Source of the DNA: Nitrospiria bacterium
Lineage (GTDB): Bacteria; Nitrospirota; RBG-16-64-22
Direction of reading: 5' to 3'
DNA: 42,486 nucleotides
Assembly: GCA_919903025.1 (NCBI GenBank)
Contig: CAKKSE010000035.1
Span: 1 to 42,486 of the forward strand
Part shown: positions 8,374 through 33,194 of the stretch, in pieces
How positions within the stretch are numbered: position 1 is the first letter of the stretch
Layout of the letters: every line of letters starts with the position of its first letter
Program-made: the position numbers and the translations under genes
Notes under the pieces: generated by a model
Database searches by the model: none
Told to the model about the DNA's origin: nothing
Seen by the model: the letters and a program-made list of their open reading frames with translations, nothing else

Positions 8374-11007
8374 TTATCCTCCACTCCTCCACTTGTGGAG
8401 CAGATTCAGCGCCTCGATCGGGGTCAGGCGTTCCAGGTCCAGGCTGTCGAGCTCACGGGCGATCCGGTCTTCCTTTTCGCCGAACAGGTTGAGCTGGGGC
8501 GGGCCGGAGGGTTGTCCCGTCCCTTCGGCGCGGCGCGCGAGGCGCGGCTCGCCGTTCGACGTGATCGCTGAGGCTTCGAGGTTGGCCAGGATCTCCCGCG
8601 CCCGGGCGATGACGGGTTCCGGCAGGCCCGCGAGCCGCCCGACGTGGATCCCGTAGCTCTTGTCGGCGCCCCCTTCCTCGATCTTGTGCAGGAAAACGAT
8701 CTGGTCCCCCCATTCGCGGACGGAGACCCGGTGATTGAGGACGCCCTCGCAGGTGAGCGGAAGTTCCGTAAGCTCGTGATAGTGCGTGGCGAAGAGCGTG
8801 CGGGCGCGGAGGCGTCCCGCAAGGTCCTCGGCCACGGCCCAGGCGATCCCCACGCCGTCGAACGTCGACGTGCCCCGGCCGATCTCGTCGAGGATGACCA
8901 GACTCCGATCGGTGGCCTGACGGAGGACCTGTGCCGTCTCGGCCATCTCGACCATGAAGGTGCTCTGGCCGCGCGAGATGTAGTCAGTCGCGCCGATCCG
9001 GGTGAAGATGCGGTCAACGACGCCGATCCGCGCGGCGGCGGCGGGGACGGGCGCTCCCGCCTGGGCCAGGACGACGATCAGGGCGACCTGCCGCATGTAG
9101 GTCGACTTCCCGGCCATGTTAGGCCCCGTGATGACGTGGATCGGCGCTTGGGGCGCGAGGCGCGTGTCGTTCGGCACGAACCGGTCGGATCCGAGCGCCT
9201 CGACGACCGGGTGACGGCCGTCCTGGATCTCGATCTCGCGCGAGTCGTCGACCGTCGGAAGGACGTAATTCCGCCGGACACCGGTCTCCGCCAGAGCGGA
9301 GAGGCAGTCGAGACCGGCCACGGCGCGGGCCGTTCGCTGGATCCGGGCGGCTGACTGCGTGACGGCGGCGCAGAGCCCCTGGAACAGATCGTACTCGCGG
9401 AGAGCGATCTTTTCGTCGGCCCCGACGACCTGCTCTTCGAACTCCTTCAGTTCCGGGGTCGTGAATCGTTCCGCGCCGACGAGCGTCTGCTTCCGCATGT
9501 AGTCGCTCGGAACGCGTTCCTGCTGGGCCTTCGTCACCTCGATATAGTAGCCGAACACGCGGTTGTACCGGACCTTGAGCGAAGGGATCCCCGTCCGTTC
9601 CCGCTCCCGCCTCTCGATCTCGGCGATCATCCCCCGCCCCGCTCGGCCGATCTCCCGAAGAGCGTCGAGCGCCGCGTCCCAGCCGGGCCGGATCATCCCT
9701 CCCTCGCGGACAGTCGCGGGTGGGTCGTCAATCAGGGCGCGGGAGAGCAGGTCCGCCAGGTCGGGGATCGCATCAAGGCTCTCGCCGAAGGGGTCGAGCG
9801 GACCGGGTCCCGCCGTCTCCAAAACAGCGATCAGTCTCGGGACGGCCGCCATTGAGGCGCGGAGCGCCGCCAGATCCCGCGCGCCGGCCGTGCCCATCGT
9901 CACGCGGGCCAGCAGGCGTTCGAGATCGAGGACCTCCGGCAGAACGCCTCGAATGCCCTGCCTGATCCCCCCCTCCTCCATGAAGGTCCGAACGCCGGCC
10001 TGACGCTCGCGGATCGCGGCGACGTCGGTCAGCGGAGCGTGAAGCCATTCACGGATGAGCCGGGCGCCCATGGCGGTCCTCGTCTCGTCCATGACCGAAA
10101 GGAGCGATCCCCGGGGCGAGCCGTCATACAGGGACCGCGATATTTCAAGGGTCCGGATGGCGTTCGCGTCGAGGACGGGAACGGAATCCCGAACGAACCG
10201 GATCTCGCGGACATGGCTCAGCTCCCGCATCTGGGTCTCGCGGGCGTAGGAGACGGCCGCCGAAGCCGCCCCGACGGAGAGATCGTGTCCGGCCAGACCA
10301 AACGGTTCGAGCGTCGCCACGCCGAACTGGTCCTTCAGGCGGGACTCCCCCGTCGCCGAATCGAACCGGGCCGCCGGCCAGCGCGTGATCGTCGCCCCCC
10401 ATTCGGCCGCGGCCGCGGCGACGGCCGGGTCCGGCTCCCCCCTGTCCGGGACCAGGACTTCGGCCGGCCTGTGCCGATCGAGGAACAGAATCCCCTCCCG
10501 AACGCTTTCCTGCTCAGCCGCGAGAAGACGCCCCGTCGACAGATCGAGAAGGGCCAGGCCCGCGCGGCCGCCGCGGTCGAGGAAGGCGGCCAGGCTCCTC
10601 GATTCCCGCGCGTCGAGGAGGGCGGGATCGAGGGCCGTTCCCGGCGTGACGACGCGCACGACCTCGCGGCGGACGATCCCCTTCGCCTGCCGGGGGTCCT
10701 CGACTTGGTCGCAGACGGCCACGCGGTAACCCCGGTTGACCAGCTTGGCGAGGTACGCTTCGGCCGCGACGACAGGGACGCCGCACAAGGGAACGGCGTC
10801 CGGGCGTCCCTTGTTCCGGGACGTGAGGGCGATTTCTAGGACGCCCGACGCCGTCACGGCGTCCTCGAAGAACATCTCATAGAAGTCGCCCATCCGGAAG
10901 AAGAGGATGGCGTCCGGGTGCGCCTTCTTGATCTCTTGGTATTGCCGCATGGCCGGCGTCAGGCCGGCGCGGCCGTTAGCCGGGGAACCGGGGACGGAGC
11001 TTCTCAT
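8374..11007 (-). CDS. mutS: DNA mismatch repair protein MutS
   Basis: Recognises mismatches and small loops and recruits MutL. The 877-residue length is typical. The mismatch-wedge motif appears as FFRMGDFYEMFFEDA at about residue 40. The ATPase domain has the Walker A GPNMAGKSTYMRQ at about residue 625, the Walker B ILDEIGRGTSTFDG and the conserved ATHYHEL. The ATG at 11007 overlaps the HIT gene by 32 bp and keeps the family motif LTPAMRQYQEIK, which lies upstream of the next ATG (10950), so I favour the longer form. No mutL is visible in the window. Confidence 0.97.
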   Translation of the reverse strand: MRSSVPGSPANGRAGLTPAMRQYQEIKKAHPDAILFFRMGDFYEMFFEDAVTASGVLEIALTSRNKGRPDAVPLCGVPVVAAEAYLAKLVNRGYRVAVCDQVEDPRQAKGIVRREVVRVVTPGTALDPALLDARESRSLAAFLDRGGRAGLALLDLSTGRLLAAEQESVREGILFLDRHRPAEVLVPDRGEPDPAVAAAAAEWGATITRWPAARFDSATGESRLKDQFGVATLEPFGLAGHDLSVGAASAAVSYARETQMRELSHVREIRFVRDSVPVLDANAIRTLEISRSLYDGSPRGSLLSVMDETRTAMGARLIREWLHAPLTDVAAIRERQAGVRTFMEEGGIRQGIRGVLPEVLDLERLLARVTMGTAGARDLAALRASMAAVPRLIAVLETAGPGPLDPFGESLDAIPDLADLLSRALIDDPPATVREGGMIRPGWDAALDALREIGRAGRGMIAEIERRERERTGIPSLKVRYNRVFGYYIEVTKAQQERVPSDYMRKQTLVGAERFTTPELKEFEEQVVGADEKIALREYDLFQGLCAAVTQSAARIQRTARAVAGLDCLSALAETGVRRNYVLPTVDDSREIEIQDGRHPVVEALGSDRFVPNDTRLAPQAPIHVITGPNMAGKSTYMRQVALIVVLAQAGAPVPAAAARIGVVDRIFTRIGATDYISRGQSTFMVEMAETAQVLRQATDRSLVILDEIGRGTSTFDGVGIAWAVAEDLAGRLRARTLFATHYHELTELPLTCEGVLNHRVSVREWGDQIVFLHKIEEGGADKSYGIHVGRLAGLPEPVIARAREILANLEASAITSNGEPRLARRAEGTGQPSGPPQLNLFGEKEDRIARELDSLDLERLTPIEALNLLHKWRSGG

Positions 11008-11458
11008 ACGTGGAGTCGAGGTGGTCGGGAATGACCTTGGTCTCGCCCAAGATCGGCATCAAATCGGTGTCCCCCCTCCAGCGGGGAACGATGTGGATGT
11101 GGAGATGCTGGCCGATTCCCGCGCCGGCGTCGCGGCCGAGGTTCATTCCGATATTGAAGCCGTCCGGCTTGTAGACGGCGCGCAGGGCGGCGACCGAGCG
11201 GCGAACGGTGACCCAGAGATCGGCGAGGACCTCCGGAGGGAGCGTCTCGAACGATTCCTCGTGGAGGAACGGGACGACCATGAGGTGGCCGTTCGTATAA
11301 GGATAGATGTTCATGATGACGTACGACTGGGCGGACCGGTGCAGGATGCGGGCGGCCCGGTCGTCCCCGCACCGCGGGGATTCGCAGAAAACGCACCCTT
11401 CGCCGCGAGGCACGCCCACATAGGCCATCCGCCACGGCGCCCAGATTCGTTCCATCAT
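10976..11458 (-). CDS. HIT-family hydrolase/phosphorylase (Ap4A phosphorylase-like)
   Basis: A 160-residue histidine-triad protein. It begins ERIWAPWRMAYV, the characteristic opening of the bacterial Ap4A-phosphorylase-like HIT subgroup. A Cys pair (CVFCESP) follows. The triad is QHLHIHIVPRW at about residue 118. Substrates in the subgroup are dinucleoside polyphosphates or related nucleotides; the exact substrate cannot be told from sequence. It is distinct from the smaller HinT-like gene at 29845-30189. It overlaps mutS by 32 bp and is probably cotranscribed with it. Confidence 0.9.
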   Translation of the reverse strand: MMERIWAPWRMAYVGVPRGEGCVFCESPRCGDDRAARILHRSAQSYVIMNIYPYTNGHLMVVPFLHEESFETLPPEVLADLWVTVRRSVAALRAVYKPDGFNIGMNLGRDAGAGIGQHLHIHIVPRWRGDTDLMPILGETKVIPDHLDSTYEKLRPRFPG

Positions 11459-11480
11459 CCCTCCCGTGGATTTCGGGGGT

Positions 11481-11542
11481 AAGGATTAAGGGGTATGGAT
11501 TAATAAGTTCCCTTCCTCCCCCTACCCCCTAATCCCTAATCC
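11481..11542. repeat. Paired heptamer arrays in the HIT/cyclase spacer
   Basis: Two short arrays with a 7-bp period face each other. The left arm (11481-11508) is AAGGATT AAGGGGT ATGGATT with a degenerate fourth unit. The right arm (11515-11542) is CCTCCCC CTACCCC CTAATCC CTAATCC. The arms are roughly reverse complementary: GGATTAAGGGGTA pairs with TACCCCCTAATCC at 12 of 13 positions, so the spacer can fold into a hairpin downstream of the cyclase stop codon. Confidence 0.75.
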
Positions 11543-11549
11543 CGCTCTC

Positions 11550-13436
11550 TTAGAATAGGACGCTGTAGACCGAAACGGTTTTGTCCACGCCTTCGAGGAC
11601 CACGTCCCCGACAAATTCGAGGACGATGCGCTGTCCGAGGACCTCATCGGCGAACGACAGGTGGCGCGCTTCCTCGCCTCCGGCGTCGCTCGCGACGACC
11701 CTGCGGATCTCTTCGACCGTGTCCAGGCTCACGACGATTCCGACGTTGAACAACTGCCCCCGGCCGTCCACCGAGACGCCCGAGACCATCCGCCGCGTGA
11801 GGAAGCGTTGCGAAACGAACTGCTTGAACCCCTCGGCCTCCCGGGGCCCCCCCAGGCTCTCGGCGAGCGAATGGATCATCGTCCGGAACTCGTCCGACTC
11901 CCCCGCGGGCGCGGCGGGTTGTTTCGGAGACGAGAGCCGCCCGGCGAGATTCACGTTTCGCCCGATCACCGTCCGGTGAACCTGCCCCTGACACCCCATG
12001 AACTCGGCGACGAAGACCCGGCCCGTGTGGAGGGCGATCCCCATCTTGAGGTCGGTCTTCCCCTGGCGGCGGAGCCCGTCGAGGTGGCGCTGCATCATCA
12101 CGGCCGTCCGGAGGCCCATGAGCGGGTCCTCGCGCCGCGGGATCGGGACGCCGAAGGTGATCATGACGCCGTCGCCGATGAACTTGTCGATGCGTCCCCC
12201 GAAACGCATCACGATCTCGGCGATCGGGTCGAAGATTCGATAGAGCGATTCGGTCAGCTCTTTCTCGGAGAACCCCTTTTCGGAGAGGCGCGTGAATCCG
12301 CGGACGTCGGCGAAGAGGATCGTCGCCGCGCGGGCGTTGTTCACCACCTGTTCGGCCTCTCCGAATCGGAACAGCCGTCCCTGGCTGAAGAGGATTTCTT
12401 CCTCGGACGCCGCCGCCTCCGTCGTGAGGAGGTGGACCCTGTGCTGGAGGACCTCGAGGATCTCCGTCCGCCGGACGCCGTCCAGGAGGGCCTTGTACCG
12501 GTCCAGAAGGACGGTCCACCCATTCAGGCGCCCGGCCGCCTCGACCAGGACCGGCCTGGACCGCAGGGAGCCGGCCACCGCGTCGATGTCGGTCAGGAGA
12601 TAGTCGACGAAGGGCCGGCAGAAGAGGGCCTTGAGCTGCGCCTTCTTTTCGGAGAGATGCTCCACGGGGATGAAGGGAAGGAAGGTTCGGAGCGCTCCGA
12701 GGACTCCCCCCTCACGGGATTCGACGGCGCGGAGGAGGCGCGTTTTCAGGATGTGGAACACCTCCGTGAAGACACGGTGCGAGAAGGGATAGCGGGGATT
12801 GTGACCGGCGAGAACGACGGAGAGGTTGATCTTGTGGATGGCCGTCTCCGTGATCGGGAACTGGTCGGAGACGATCGACTCGATCAACTGCCATCGGAAC
12901 GCGGGGCCGAATTGAATGCGGACCTTGTCCGGCTCGGCTTCGGTGAGGGCCCGAAGGGCACGCGACTGGGCGGCCTGCAGGGCGCCGGCCAGGATAATCT
13001 CCACGCGATAGCGGAGAAAGACTTTCCGTCCCCGTCCCGTGAAGAACTCGTTGACCAGCACGGCCAGATACTTGGCGAAGGCCAGCCAGAAAAGGTTGAC
13101 CAGCCCGTTCCGCCGTTCATGCGGCATCGTCCGGACCAGGACGTCGCGAAGCGTCGCGATGAATTCGTTTTCCGCGGAGGCGCCCGATTCCACGTAGGCC
13201 AGGGGCGCGCCCTCGTCGTGCCCCTCGATGAGCCGATAAGCGTGATCCAGGAACGCCGAGGTGCGGCTCAGCAGATCCAGCGGAAGCCGGACGTGAAGCG
13301 ATTCGGCCCCGCCGCGCAGGGCCTCCTCCTCTGGAAGGACGGGAAGCGCGCTTCCGAACAGCGTCGCCACCTCGTCCTCGGTCCCTTGCGTGAAGGTGAG
13401 GTGCCGGCAGACCTCGGGCGGAAAGTAGGTTCTCAT
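11550..13436 (-). CDS. Class III adenylate/guanylate cyclase with unrecognised N-terminal domain
   Basis: The C-terminal cyclase domain (about residues 371-505 of 628) has LFADVRGFT with the first metal-binding Asp, DKFIGDGVMITFG with the second Asp and the substrate-contacting Lys, and TVIGRNVNLAGRL with the conserved Asn and Arg. It should be catalytically active. The residue at the purine-selecting position is Thr, so cAMP versus cGMP cannot be settled. The first 370 residues show no transmembrane segment, GAF, PAS or HAMP pattern that I recognise; they look mostly helical. About 120 residues follow the catalytic domain. The ATG overlaps the stop of the upstream uracil-DNA glycosylase gene (ATGA), making it the last gene of the pdxJ-to-cyclase operon. 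Confidence 0.88.
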   Translation of the reverse strand: MRTYFPPEVCRHLTFTQGTEDEVATLFGSALPVLPEEEALRGGAESLHVRLPLDLLSRTSAFLDHAYRLIEGHDEGAPLAYVESGASAENEFIATLRDVLVRTMPHERRNGLVNLFWLAFAKYLAVLVNEFFTGRGRKVFLRYRVEIILAGALQAAQSRALRALTEAEPDKVRIQFGPAFRWQLIESIVSDQFPITETAIHKINLSVVLAGHNPRYPFSHRVFTEVFHILKTRLLRAVESREGGVLGALRTFLPFIPVEHLSEKKAQLKALFCRPFVDYLLTDIDAVAGSLRSRPVLVEAAGRLNGWTVLLDRYKALLDGVRRTEILEVLQHRVHLLTTEAAASEEEILFSQGRLFRFGEAEQVVNNARAATILFADVRGFTRLSEKGFSEKELTESLYRIFDPIAEIVMRFGGRIDKFIGDGVMITFGVPIPRREDPLMGLRTAVMMQRHLDGLRRQGKTDLKMGIALHTGRVFVAEFMGCQGQVHRTVIGRNVNLAGRLSSPKQPAAPAGESDEFRTMIHSLAESLGGPREAEGFKQFVSQRFLTRRMVSGVSVDGRGQLFNVGIVVSLDTVEEIRRVVASDAGGEEARHLSFADEVLGQRIVLEFVGDVVLEGVDKTVSVYSVLF

Positions 13437-30848: not shown

Positions 30849-30873
30849 TATTCCCCCGAAAAGAAAGTCGTCG

Positions 30874-30992
30874 GTCAATCGTCAATGGTCAATAGTCAAT
30901 CGGGAAGACACACGGGTTGCCTATCCGTGTATTGGCCATGGCCATTAACGATTGACCAATGACCATTGACCGATAACCATTGACCATTACCT
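30874..30992. repeat. Paired heptamer arrays in the hisF/hisIE spacer
   Basis: The left arm (30874-30901) is four tandem heptamers of GTCAATN. The right arm (30944-30992) is seven heptamers based on ATTGACC, the reverse complement, ending at the hisF stop codon. The 42-bp centre holds a small hairpin (CACGG/CCGTG) and the palindrome GGCCATGGCC. The layout matches the spacer at 11481-11542 although the heptamer sequence is different. Confidence 0.85.
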
Positions 30993-31809
30993 ACGCAAGC
31001 CTGATTGGGATCCCGCGGCCGGCCAAGTACCGCTTCGCATCGCCCACGGTTGCCTCCCCGTAGTGAAAAATCGAGGCCGCCAGAACGGCGTCCGCGCCCC
31101 CGAGGACGATCCCTTCGTAGAGATGATCGAGCGTCCCCACTCCCCCGGAGGCGATCACGGGGATCCCGACGCCGCGGCCGACCGCCTTGGTCAGATCAAG
31201 GTCGTACCCCTCCCTCGTTCCGTCCCTGTCCATGCTGGTGAGGAGGATCTCCCCGGCCCCGAGGCCCTCCATCCGTCCCGCCCATTCCACCGCGTCGATG
31301 CCGGTCGACCGGCGCCCCCCGTGTGTGAACACCTCCCAGCCGGCATCCGATGATTGGGGACTTCCTTCCGCGACCCTTCGACCTTCGACCTTGGACCTTG
31401 GACTTCGGACTCTCTTCGCGTCAATCGCCACGACGATGCATTGGCTTCCGAACCGCTCGGACGCTCTCTGGACGAACCCGGGATCGGCGACGGCGGCCGT
31501 GTTGACGGCCACCTTGTCGGCCCCCGCCTTGAGGAGAGCGCGGATATCCTCCAGCGTTCGCACGCCTCCTCCCACCGTCAGGGGCATGAAGACCTGGTCG
31601 GCCGTCCGGGCCACGACGTCCAGGATGATCGGCCTTTCCTCGTGCGAGGCGGTGATATCGAGGAAGCAGAGTTCGTCGGCTCCCTGCTCATCGTAGGCCC
31701 GGGCGATCTCCACGGGATCCCCGGCGTCGCGAAGGTTGACGAACGTGACTCCCTTGACGACGCGGCCGCCCATGACGTCGAGACACGGAATGATCCGCTT
31801 GGCGAGCAT
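30991..31809 (-). CDS. hisF: Imidazole glycerol phosphate synthase cyclase subunit HisF, with an internal insertion
   Basis: With HisH, converts PRFAR to imidazole glycerol phosphate and AICAR. The barrel motifs are intact: [16 protein letters not shown] with the first catalytic Asp, [23 protein letters not shown] with the second Asp, [11 protein letters not shown] and [13 protein letters not shown]. It has 272 residues rather than about 253. Compared with Thermotoga HisF, about 20 extra residues (about 134-156, rich in Arg, Ser and Pro) follow AIDAKRV and precede [13 protein letters not shown]. The DNA for this insert (about 31342-31410) contains a heptamer repeat. The frame is kept, so the enzyme may still work with an extended loop. 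Confidence 0.93.
31373..31415. repeat. Heptamer repeat inside hisF
   Basis: On the plus strand ACCTTCG, ACCTTGG and ACCTTGG stand in tandem (31381-31401), flanked by degenerate copies (ACCCTTCG before, ACTTCGG and ACTCTCT after). The array coincides with the extra loop in HisF. It is not found in the other his genes. Confidence 0.75.
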
Positions 31810-32544: not shown

Positions 32545-33182
32545 CCGAGCTTTCCGAACTCTTCGATGATCGACAGGCCGACGCCCTGGCTCTTCTCCGG
32601 GTGGAACTGTGTCGCCACGATGTTATCCTTCCAGACGGCCGAGACGAACTCCACCCCGTGCTCCGTCGTCGCGGCGATGACGCCGGGATCGTCCGGGAGA
32701 ACGACGTAGGAGTGGACGAAGTAGACGTACGAGCCGTCACCCACGTTCCGCATCGCCGGCGGCCTCCGCCGAAACGTCAGGGTGTTCCACCCCATGTGAG
32801 GAACCTTGAGGCCTCGCTTCCCCACCGACTCCGGGAATCGCGCGACGCGTCCGGAGAAAACGCCGAGCCCCGGATGGCGCCCAAACTCCTCCCCCTCGGA
32901 AAAGAGGATCTGCATCCCGACGCACAGGCCCAGGAAGGGTTTGCCCGCCTCGATGGCCCGAAGGACCGGTTCGGCCAGTCCCCGGTTCTCGAGGTTCGAC
33001 ATGCAGGCCGGGAACGAGCCCACGCCGGGAAGGACGACGTGCGTCGCGTCGGCAATATCGGCCGGGTCGGAGGTGATGGCGGCCGGGTGCCCAACCCGGG
33101 CGAACGCCTTCTCGACGCTCCTCAGGTTCCCCATCCCGTAGTCGACGATCGCAACCCGCGTTCGATTCACCGATTCACCCAT
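32541..33182 (-). CDS. hisH: Imidazole glycerol phosphate synthase glutaminase subunit HisH
   Basis: Supplies ammonia from glutamine to HisF. The catalytic Cys is in FLGLCVGMQILF and the His-Glu pair in ATQFHPEKSQGVGLS. The N-terminus RVAIVDYGMGNLRSVEKAF and VVLPGVGSFPACM are typical. The first eight codons (MGESVNRT) are read from the octamer repeat at 33163-33194. A GTG at 33167 would also start in the same frame and could be the older start. It has 213 residues and no disruption. Confidence 0.95.
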   Translation of the reverse strand: MGESVNRTRVAIVDYGMGNLRSVEKAFARVGHPAAITSDPADIADATHVVLPGVGSFPACMSNLENRGLAEPVLRAIEAGKPFLGLCVGMQILFSEGEEFGRHPGLGVFSGRVARFPESVGKRGLKVPHMGWNTLTFRRRPPAMRNVGDGSYVYFVHSYVVLPDDPGVIAATTEHGVEFVSAVWKDNIVATQFHPEKSQGVGLSIIEEFGKLG

Positions 33183-33194
33183 TCACCGGATTAC
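33163..33194. repeat. Octamer array across the hisB/hisH junction
   Basis: CGATTCAC CGATTCAC CCATTCAC CGGATTAC stand in tandem on the plus strand, covering the hisB stop codon and the hisH start codon. The same CGATTCAC unit recurs between hisG and murA (36909-36948). Confidence 0.75.

Follow-up and report, generated by a model that had tools for sequence, protein, structure and literature searches.

We found that the spacer between a cyclase gene and a HIT gene in a groundwater Nitrospirota MAG is nearly filled by two inverted arms of a tandem heptamer, and that its genus carries many such arrays, built from several 7- and 8-bp words. The arrays recur in intergenic spacers and are biased in position and strand near stop codons. 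The focal element is absent in both nearest named relatives, at some orthologous spacers one word has been replaced by another, and in three cases an entire element has a matching counterpart at an unrelated site. Tentatively, we read the elements as stems of no particular sequence behind gene ends, which may insulate the next gene and shield the upstream 3′ end; a reading in which the repeats are merely tolerated is nearly as likely.

The element between the cyclase and HIT genes

The window is the whole stretch of DNA analyzed, 42,486 nucleotides of the MAG, whose nearest named relatives are NC_groundwater_891 (L091, Nitrospirae bacterium isolate) and RBG_16_64_22 (L092). On the minus strand, a gene for an adenylate/guanylate cyclase-domain protein (11550–13436; PF00211, E 1.4e-11; start codon inferred) precedes one for a HIT-domain protein (10976–11458; PF01230, E 2.9e-14), a pair that looks like an operon. 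The spacer measures 91 nt and runs from the cyclase stop codon (11550–11552, minus) to the HIT ATG at 11458, or to a second ATG 3 nt further on. Two near-complementary heptamer arms had been described in an earlier note as filling this spacer at 11481–11542; the arms are real, and the element reaches slightly further on both sides (11474–11544, minus). In the sense direction, a 5′ arm of the words GGGATTA/GGGGGTA (11520–11544) begins about 5–6 nt past the cyclase stop codon, followed by a 21-nt loop (11499–11519) and a 3′ arm of TTAATCC/ATACCCC (11474–11498), which ends ahead of the HIT ribosome-binding site. The arms are 25 nt each and 80% complementary. Tandem Repeats Finder reported 2.0 copies of a 14-bp unit (92% match) in the left arm and 2.4 copies of a 7-bp unit (100% match) in the right arm, and the heptamer units are degenerate (GGGATTA, GGGGGTA, GGATTAA, GGGGTAA).

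The sense RNA of the element has a folding energy of −39.7 kcal/mol, whereas its 200 shuffles average −29.4 (z = −3.27) and none of them was as stable, which bears out the potential hairpin behind the cyclase gene that the note had suggested. The fold of the antisense strand is unexceptional (z = −0.96; 37 of 200 shuffles as stable). No terminator, sought as a GC stem followed by a U-run, was matched at the hairpin, and Rfam matches at gathering score were confined to RNase P and one tRNA in the window, with none at the element. A G-quadruplex motif, GGGATTAGGGATTAGGGGGTAGGGGG, is predicted on the sense strand at 11518–11543. The pattern CCCTAATCCCTAATCCC, allowing up to two mismatches, has 57 overlapping matches in the genome; a reversed control is uninformative for it because the pattern is identical when read backwards. 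Chance as the source of the arms is excluded, mainly by these matches and by the strong excess of arrays described below.

Words, place and strand of the arrays

Arrays with a score of 14 or more were counted in a sample of the host genome (G000) of 745,901 bases, 29,823 of them N. Period 7 gave 62 arrays and period 8 gave 35, against 0–6 for each of the periods 4–6 and 9–12; further peaks at 14, 16, 21 and 24 are multiples of 7 or 8. One first-order Markov resample of G000 contained no array of period 7 or 8, and neither did 200 kb of E. coli MG1655. The same peaks appeared in two genomes of the same genus, G001 and G002 (16 + 29 arrays in 314 kb and 43 + 54 in 614 kb). The genome-wide search proposed earlier hence returned many similar spacer arrays, rather than none elsewhere in the genome.

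The 238 arrays of the three samples, which come from related genomes and are not independent, clustered round ten centres under greedy clustering with up to two mismatches, and eight centres hold at least six arrays. Written by eye as a core with variable letters, the words include ATTCACC[N], CAATTT[N], GTCA[AT]T[GC], TCAGC[NN], GAGTTC[N], CTCTGT[GC]C, ACCCATC[N] and CCCTAAT, some arrays having been assigned to the wrong family (CCTTCGA at 31375 was put with CAATTT; AACGAAT belongs with GTCA[AT]T). In each of the two largest families, a single position clearly varies (0.48 and 0.29 bits), the rest of the core being fixed (1.19–1.91 and 1.03–1.66 bits). Within the window, a second inverted heptamer element, GGTCAAT/ATTGACC, lies at 30871–30988 (plus; best arms 87% complementary; fold z = −4.5 and −5.4), and an octamer array of ATTCACC[N] at 33163–33187 (plus) is kept in both relatives. 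The CCTTCGA/CCTTGGA heptamer array at 31375–31411 is in frame within a gene (30991–31809, minus) that we take from its sequence to be hisF; between AIDAKRV and WEVFTHGG, its product has 23 residues in the window and 17, of other sequence, in each relative. Scaffold N gaps in G000 (L066, L081, L086, L043) coincide with array sites of the relatives; assemblies thus seem to break at arrays, whose number may be underestimated.

With genes called by our own codon-usage script (coding bases, 83%), 225 of the 238 arrays were placeable and 194 of these were intergenic: 142 between codirectional, 29 between convergent and 23 between divergent genes. Divergent spacers, which hold promoters, were depleted (23/194 arrays vs. 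23% of spacer bases; p = 1e-4). In the 142 codirectional cases, the array started at a median of 16 nt behind the upstream stop, and half of all intergenic arrays lay within 30 nt of a stop codon. There, the chosen strand W, which was fixed for each word family after looking, was the sense strand in 86 of 97 arrays (34/41 in G000, 18/18 in G001, 34/38 in G002). Near start codons (30 nt or less), 29 of 45 arrays pointed outward, which was not significant, and at 31–80 nt from gene ends the polarity was gone (10/18 at stops, 5/15 at starts). In the CAATTT family it was weak (34/59). Heptamer arrays were also seen beside and between the clustered tRNA-Thr, -Gly and -Tyr genes in two species (L046:89-581, L144:127-575).

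Among 49 inverted elements, 45 read W–loop–W′, three were reversed and one was unclear. An inverted partner scoring 12 or more was present in the flanks of 58 of 232 arrays, against 22 of 232 when the flanks of other loci were used; direct partners were found for 48 of 232. The excess was clear for heptamers (39/118 vs. 10 in the control), whereas octamers (19/114) were barely above their control (12) and below their direct partners (24). Since inverted partners accompany only 58 of 232 arrays, not every array can exist for the sake of a stem. Paired arms matched at 96%, 89% and 85% of core positions in three word families, whereas the variable position matched in 17/44, 17/34 and 19/26 cases against expected fractions of 0.29, 0.51 and 0.48. 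With the core agreeing and the variable letter at chance, the arms of two families appear to be two arrays of the same word rather than copies of each other; the third family leans the opposite way (p = 0.017). Inverted duplication or quasipalindrome repair is hence unlikely as the maker of arms in two of the three families, and the third leans towards such repair. Adjacent units shared their variable letter more often than shuffled ones in two families, CAATTT (z = 4.8 at lag 1) and CAGAGGCA (z = 2.6); for ATTCACC units, z was −0.7 at lag 1 and 2.8 at lag 2.

The words differ in how far they spread. The focal word had any match in 5 of 118 genomes of the phylum, and CAATTTN matched in 15 of 118, with control matches in one genome; CAATTTN is abundant in the genus of the host and once more in G040 (45 matches), which belongs to a distant family. 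In cyanobacteria, CAATTTN is near background (7/146 genomes vs. 6/146 for the reversed control), and the idea of universal words was set aside: not every word crosses phyla. GTCATTN occurred in 15 of 98 genomes of the phylum of the cyanobacterial centre, with up to 750 matches in one genome, whereas its reversed control occurred in 8 of 98 and was frequent in G213 (100) and G215 (47), where the real pattern is absent. STRR elements, reportedly described by Mazel in 1990, are dispersed intergenic heptamer arrays of heterocystous cyanobacteria. The likeness to them drawn in the earlier note is partly right, in kind but not in identity: dispersed intergenic heptamers are common to both, but STRR elements are cyanobacterial whereas the present host belongs to Nitrospirota, and the focal word is not known to be among the Calothrix STRR words. 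The genome word GTCATTG, massively repeated in some cyanobacteria, is a rotation of the STRR word TTGGTCA; no paper holding TTGGTCA was found in open-licence PMC text.

Orthologous sites in sister species

At the cyclase/HIT junction, only 18 nt (L091) and 10 nt (L092) separate stop from start in the relatives, and the element is absent from both; the surrounding DNA is 91.6–94% identical to L091. We infer a gain in the host rather than two losses. The focal word itself is expanded in the host species (13 exact matches in G000, 0 in G001 and 2 in G002). Where a comparison of copy number between strains had been proposed, the difference took a stronger form, in that the element is absent in two species of the same genus and the word itself differs at other sites.

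We bridged 85 orthologous array pairs, 67 after deduplication. Automatic classification gave 21 pairs with the same word, 9 with overlap, 17 with different words and 20 without an array on one side. Four of the 17 "different" rows were discarded by eye (clusters 19 and 80 have the same word, cluster 22 shows gradual drift and cluster 90 has both words on both sides), leaving 13 rows at ten orthologous spacers where the word has changed (clusters 21, 24, 31 with 116, 48, 53, 70, 72, 98, 127 and 170). Three of the ten are less certain: cluster 48 may be drift, cluster 72 shares its spacer with further arrays and cluster 98 has an N gap in G000. When the sites were folded (60 shuffles each, cluster 98 being outside the set), z was below −2.5 on at least one strand on both sides in clusters 21, 24, 53, 127 (G002/G000) and 170; the fold was weak on one side in clusters 31, 70 and 127 (G001 side) and on both sides in clusters 48 and 72. 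The most striking change, and the clearest three-word site, is the tRNA-Asp/tRNA-Val spacer, which holds GGTCAAT/ATTGACC in G002, GGAGTTC/GAACTCC in G000 and GGGGAATC/CCCCGTTT in G001. By eye, the word of each species forms inverted arms there, although in G001 the fold is weak (z = −1.4 and −2.0).

Eight of the 20 "absent" rows were clean by eye (clusters 0 twice, 16, 29 once, 121, 122 twice and 192). Four were N-filled in G000 (clusters 93, 129, 130 and 174), five were diverged or sub-threshold arrays (clusters 1 twice, 2, 24 and 85; cluster 24 has, by eye, another word on the G001 side) and three were too long for alignment (clusters 29 once, 76 and 172). A further empty site was seen at L193:3748 compared with L061. 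No target duplication was noticed by eye in the alignments of empty and occupied sites.

Loops mostly differ between loci, and those compared among GGGATTA elements look unrelated by eye. Nevertheless, for three pairs of elements whose sites are unrelated, the match spans the full element and stops at its ends: L156/L169 (both G002; 77 nt, 96%), L070/L038 (both G000; 93 nt, 88%) and L150 (G002)/L136 (G001) (92 nt, 91%). Copying of entire elements has therefore occurred in at least some cases.

Other repeats occur near the arrays. In G001, the orthologue of the window at about 30850 (L133:2744-3062) carries an insert with long inverted repeats, GTAGGTTGGGTTAG...CTAACCCAACCTAC, beside a GTCAAT array; this insert is missing from the window. 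A hairpin repeat, CTCCCCTTACAAAGGGGAGG, lies beside or inside ATTCACC arrays at L136:1483-1815 (G001) and L150:4685-4797 (G002), and the copy at the L150 site is missing from G000 and G001. At L137:15495-15972 (G002), the 9-bp word GCAGATTNC and its complement form, by eye, an inverted array by ATTCACC units.

What the elements may do

Our leading explanation, held tentatively, is that a stem, whatever its sequence, protects the upstream 3′ end and insulates the gene that follows. The focal element would be a lineage-specific copy of GGGATTA, one of at least eight 7- or 8-bp spacer words found across the genus. With one word at both edges of the spacer, pointing outward, the spacer would become a stem-loop, so that a tight cyclase–HIT junction (10 and 18 nt in the relatives) would have become a 91-nt spacer with a strong mRNA stem. 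Such a stem may keep ribosomes that terminate at the stop codon from going on to the following gene, and may shield the 3′ end of the upstream gene; words would be exchangeable between species at one site because any word suffices for a stem. The insulating function, and selection for it, are suggested by the fold of the focal RNA, the period peaks, the intergenic place close behind stop codons, the polarity, the lack of the focal element in the relatives and the word changes, some of which keep stems. The available part of one paper (Chemla et al., PMC7518266) describes ribosome termination structures as stable mRNA stems right behind the stop codon, defined by folding only, and reports that they insulate re-initiation in a synthetic operon. 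The focal stem resembles these in position and stability, whereas the structures in that part of the paper are not tandem words. The same source finds such stems depleted inside operons, yet the cyclase–HIT pair is operon-like, which counts against insulation, as do the loss of polarity beyond 30 nt from gene ends and the several word-change sites that lack a strong fold. Several elements, the clearest three-word site among them, also lie between tRNA genes; nothing is translated there that a stem could insulate, and translation can be at most a part of the explanation.

Nearly as likely is that the arrays are spreading repeats, grown by slippage and copied between loci, that survive harmlessly behind gene ends and form hairpins as a by-product. 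Single-armed arrays are common, divergent spacers are avoided, the variable letter is shared between adjacent units of the CAATTT and CAGAGGCA families, which is a mark of slippage, and the focal word is expanded in the host; all of these fit tolerated repeats. The polarity of 86 of 97 arrays near stops and of 45 of 49 inverted elements is unexpected of a strand-blind process, although a transcription-linked mutational bias could give both. The elements between tRNA genes, together with the whole copying, make both insulating stems and tolerated repeats slightly less likely.

We consider it possible, though rather unlikely, that sites at gene ends are periodically rewritten from a limited vocabulary of 7- and 8-bp words, while place, outward polarity and often the stem persist. 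Each word would then combine a fixed core with one less constrained position, and a hypothetical process would overwrite the array at a site with another word. The recurrence of some words in distant families of the phylum, and of one in cyanobacteria, would call for a common generator or for repeated horizontal transfer.

Also unlikely, though with real support, is that the elements are mobile units of the form W–loop–W′, similar to MITE or REP elements and moved in trans by a transposase, possibly of Y1 type. Whole-element copying makes this more likely, since three pairs match whole at unrelated sites, and empty sites are found both at the window element and at L193:3748 against L061. Y1_Tnp genes were present in all six genomes tested, but G011 and G027 have them without any CAATTTN match. 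The loops of the focal family, which look unrelated by eye, the lack by eye of target duplication and the many one-armed arrays further argue against mobile units.

A G-quadruplex element, as proposed in Xanthomonas and Nostoc, seems improbable. A four-tract motif lies on the focal sense strand and five of seven focal-word arrays could form one, but only 15 of the 238 arrays in the three genomes are capable, so G-quadruplexes cannot be the common basis of the words, and we rejected them as a general basis of the arrays. An intrinsic transcription terminator between cyclase and HIT is less probable again: beyond the arms of the 49 inverted elements, 20 of 98 flanks hold a T-rich tract, compared with 322 of 3786 intergenic places taken at random (p = 4e-4), but the focal hairpin gave no terminator match and its spacer lies between codirectional genes. 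Writing of words from RNA templates by a telomerase-like reverse transcriptase, which would fit recurring words with mostly non-recurring loops and arms that share a core with variable letters at chance in two of three families, is hardly credible and was dropped on the RVT_1 search, which found no match in G000 (98.7% complete) or G002 and was positive in 3 of 12 genomes, showing no visible link with how rich in words a genome is.

Of the cases described so far, the nearest is the G-rich heptamer family of Xanthomonas and Nostoc (GGGNATC / GGGGA(C/T)T; Rehm et al. 2015, PMC4692102). According to the available part of that paper, the Xanthomonas repeats are 89–93% intergenic at an average of 28 nt from the upstream ORF, the repeats are fewer between divergent genes, the G-rich strand is often sense within 50 bp of a stop, inverted sites are paired in 70 and 75 cases, and the role remains to be elucidated. 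Tandem heptamers with variable positions, intergenic location, proximity to an upstream stop, strand bias and inverted pairs are common to both. The focal motif contains four G tracts, and its G-quadruplex is predicted from sequence. The unit differs: the focal GGGATTA is neither GGGAATC/GGGANTN nor GGGGA(C/T)T, although after rotation it is one change from GGGGATT. Unlike the repeats in that part of the source, several words and octamers coexist here in one genome, and most arrays are incapable of forming G-quadruplexes. In what is available of PMC2700814, Geobacter metallireducens has several classes of tandem 7- and 8-mers, called regulator binding sites, with classes 1 and 2 paired on opposite strands; its words differ from ours, and word replacement is unmentioned in that portion. 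The TAACTGA repeats of Beggiatoaceae (PMC4679880, available part) are likewise intergenic heptamers, patchy across phyla, but consist of one word, particularly upstream of start codons, in 169 direct sets and one indirect set. Among open-licence PMC papers, no title or abstract opening recognizably concerned heptamer arrays in Nitrospirota or word replacement.

Reports of heptamer arrays come from scattered bacteria, usually with one word or few classes per group and no accepted function in the parts of these papers available (PMC4692102, PMC2700814, PMC4679880). To the picture of Rehm et al., the present genomes add several words, octamers beside heptamers and the replacement of words at fixed sites. 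Place, strand and stem are often conserved while the word is not, which argues against word-specific binding proteins as well as a general G-quadruplex basis. Three sister genomes with several words and with matched, empty and replaced sites amount to a comparative experiment. If the stems do insulate, these arrays would give bacteria an inexpensive means of growing stems where genes end.
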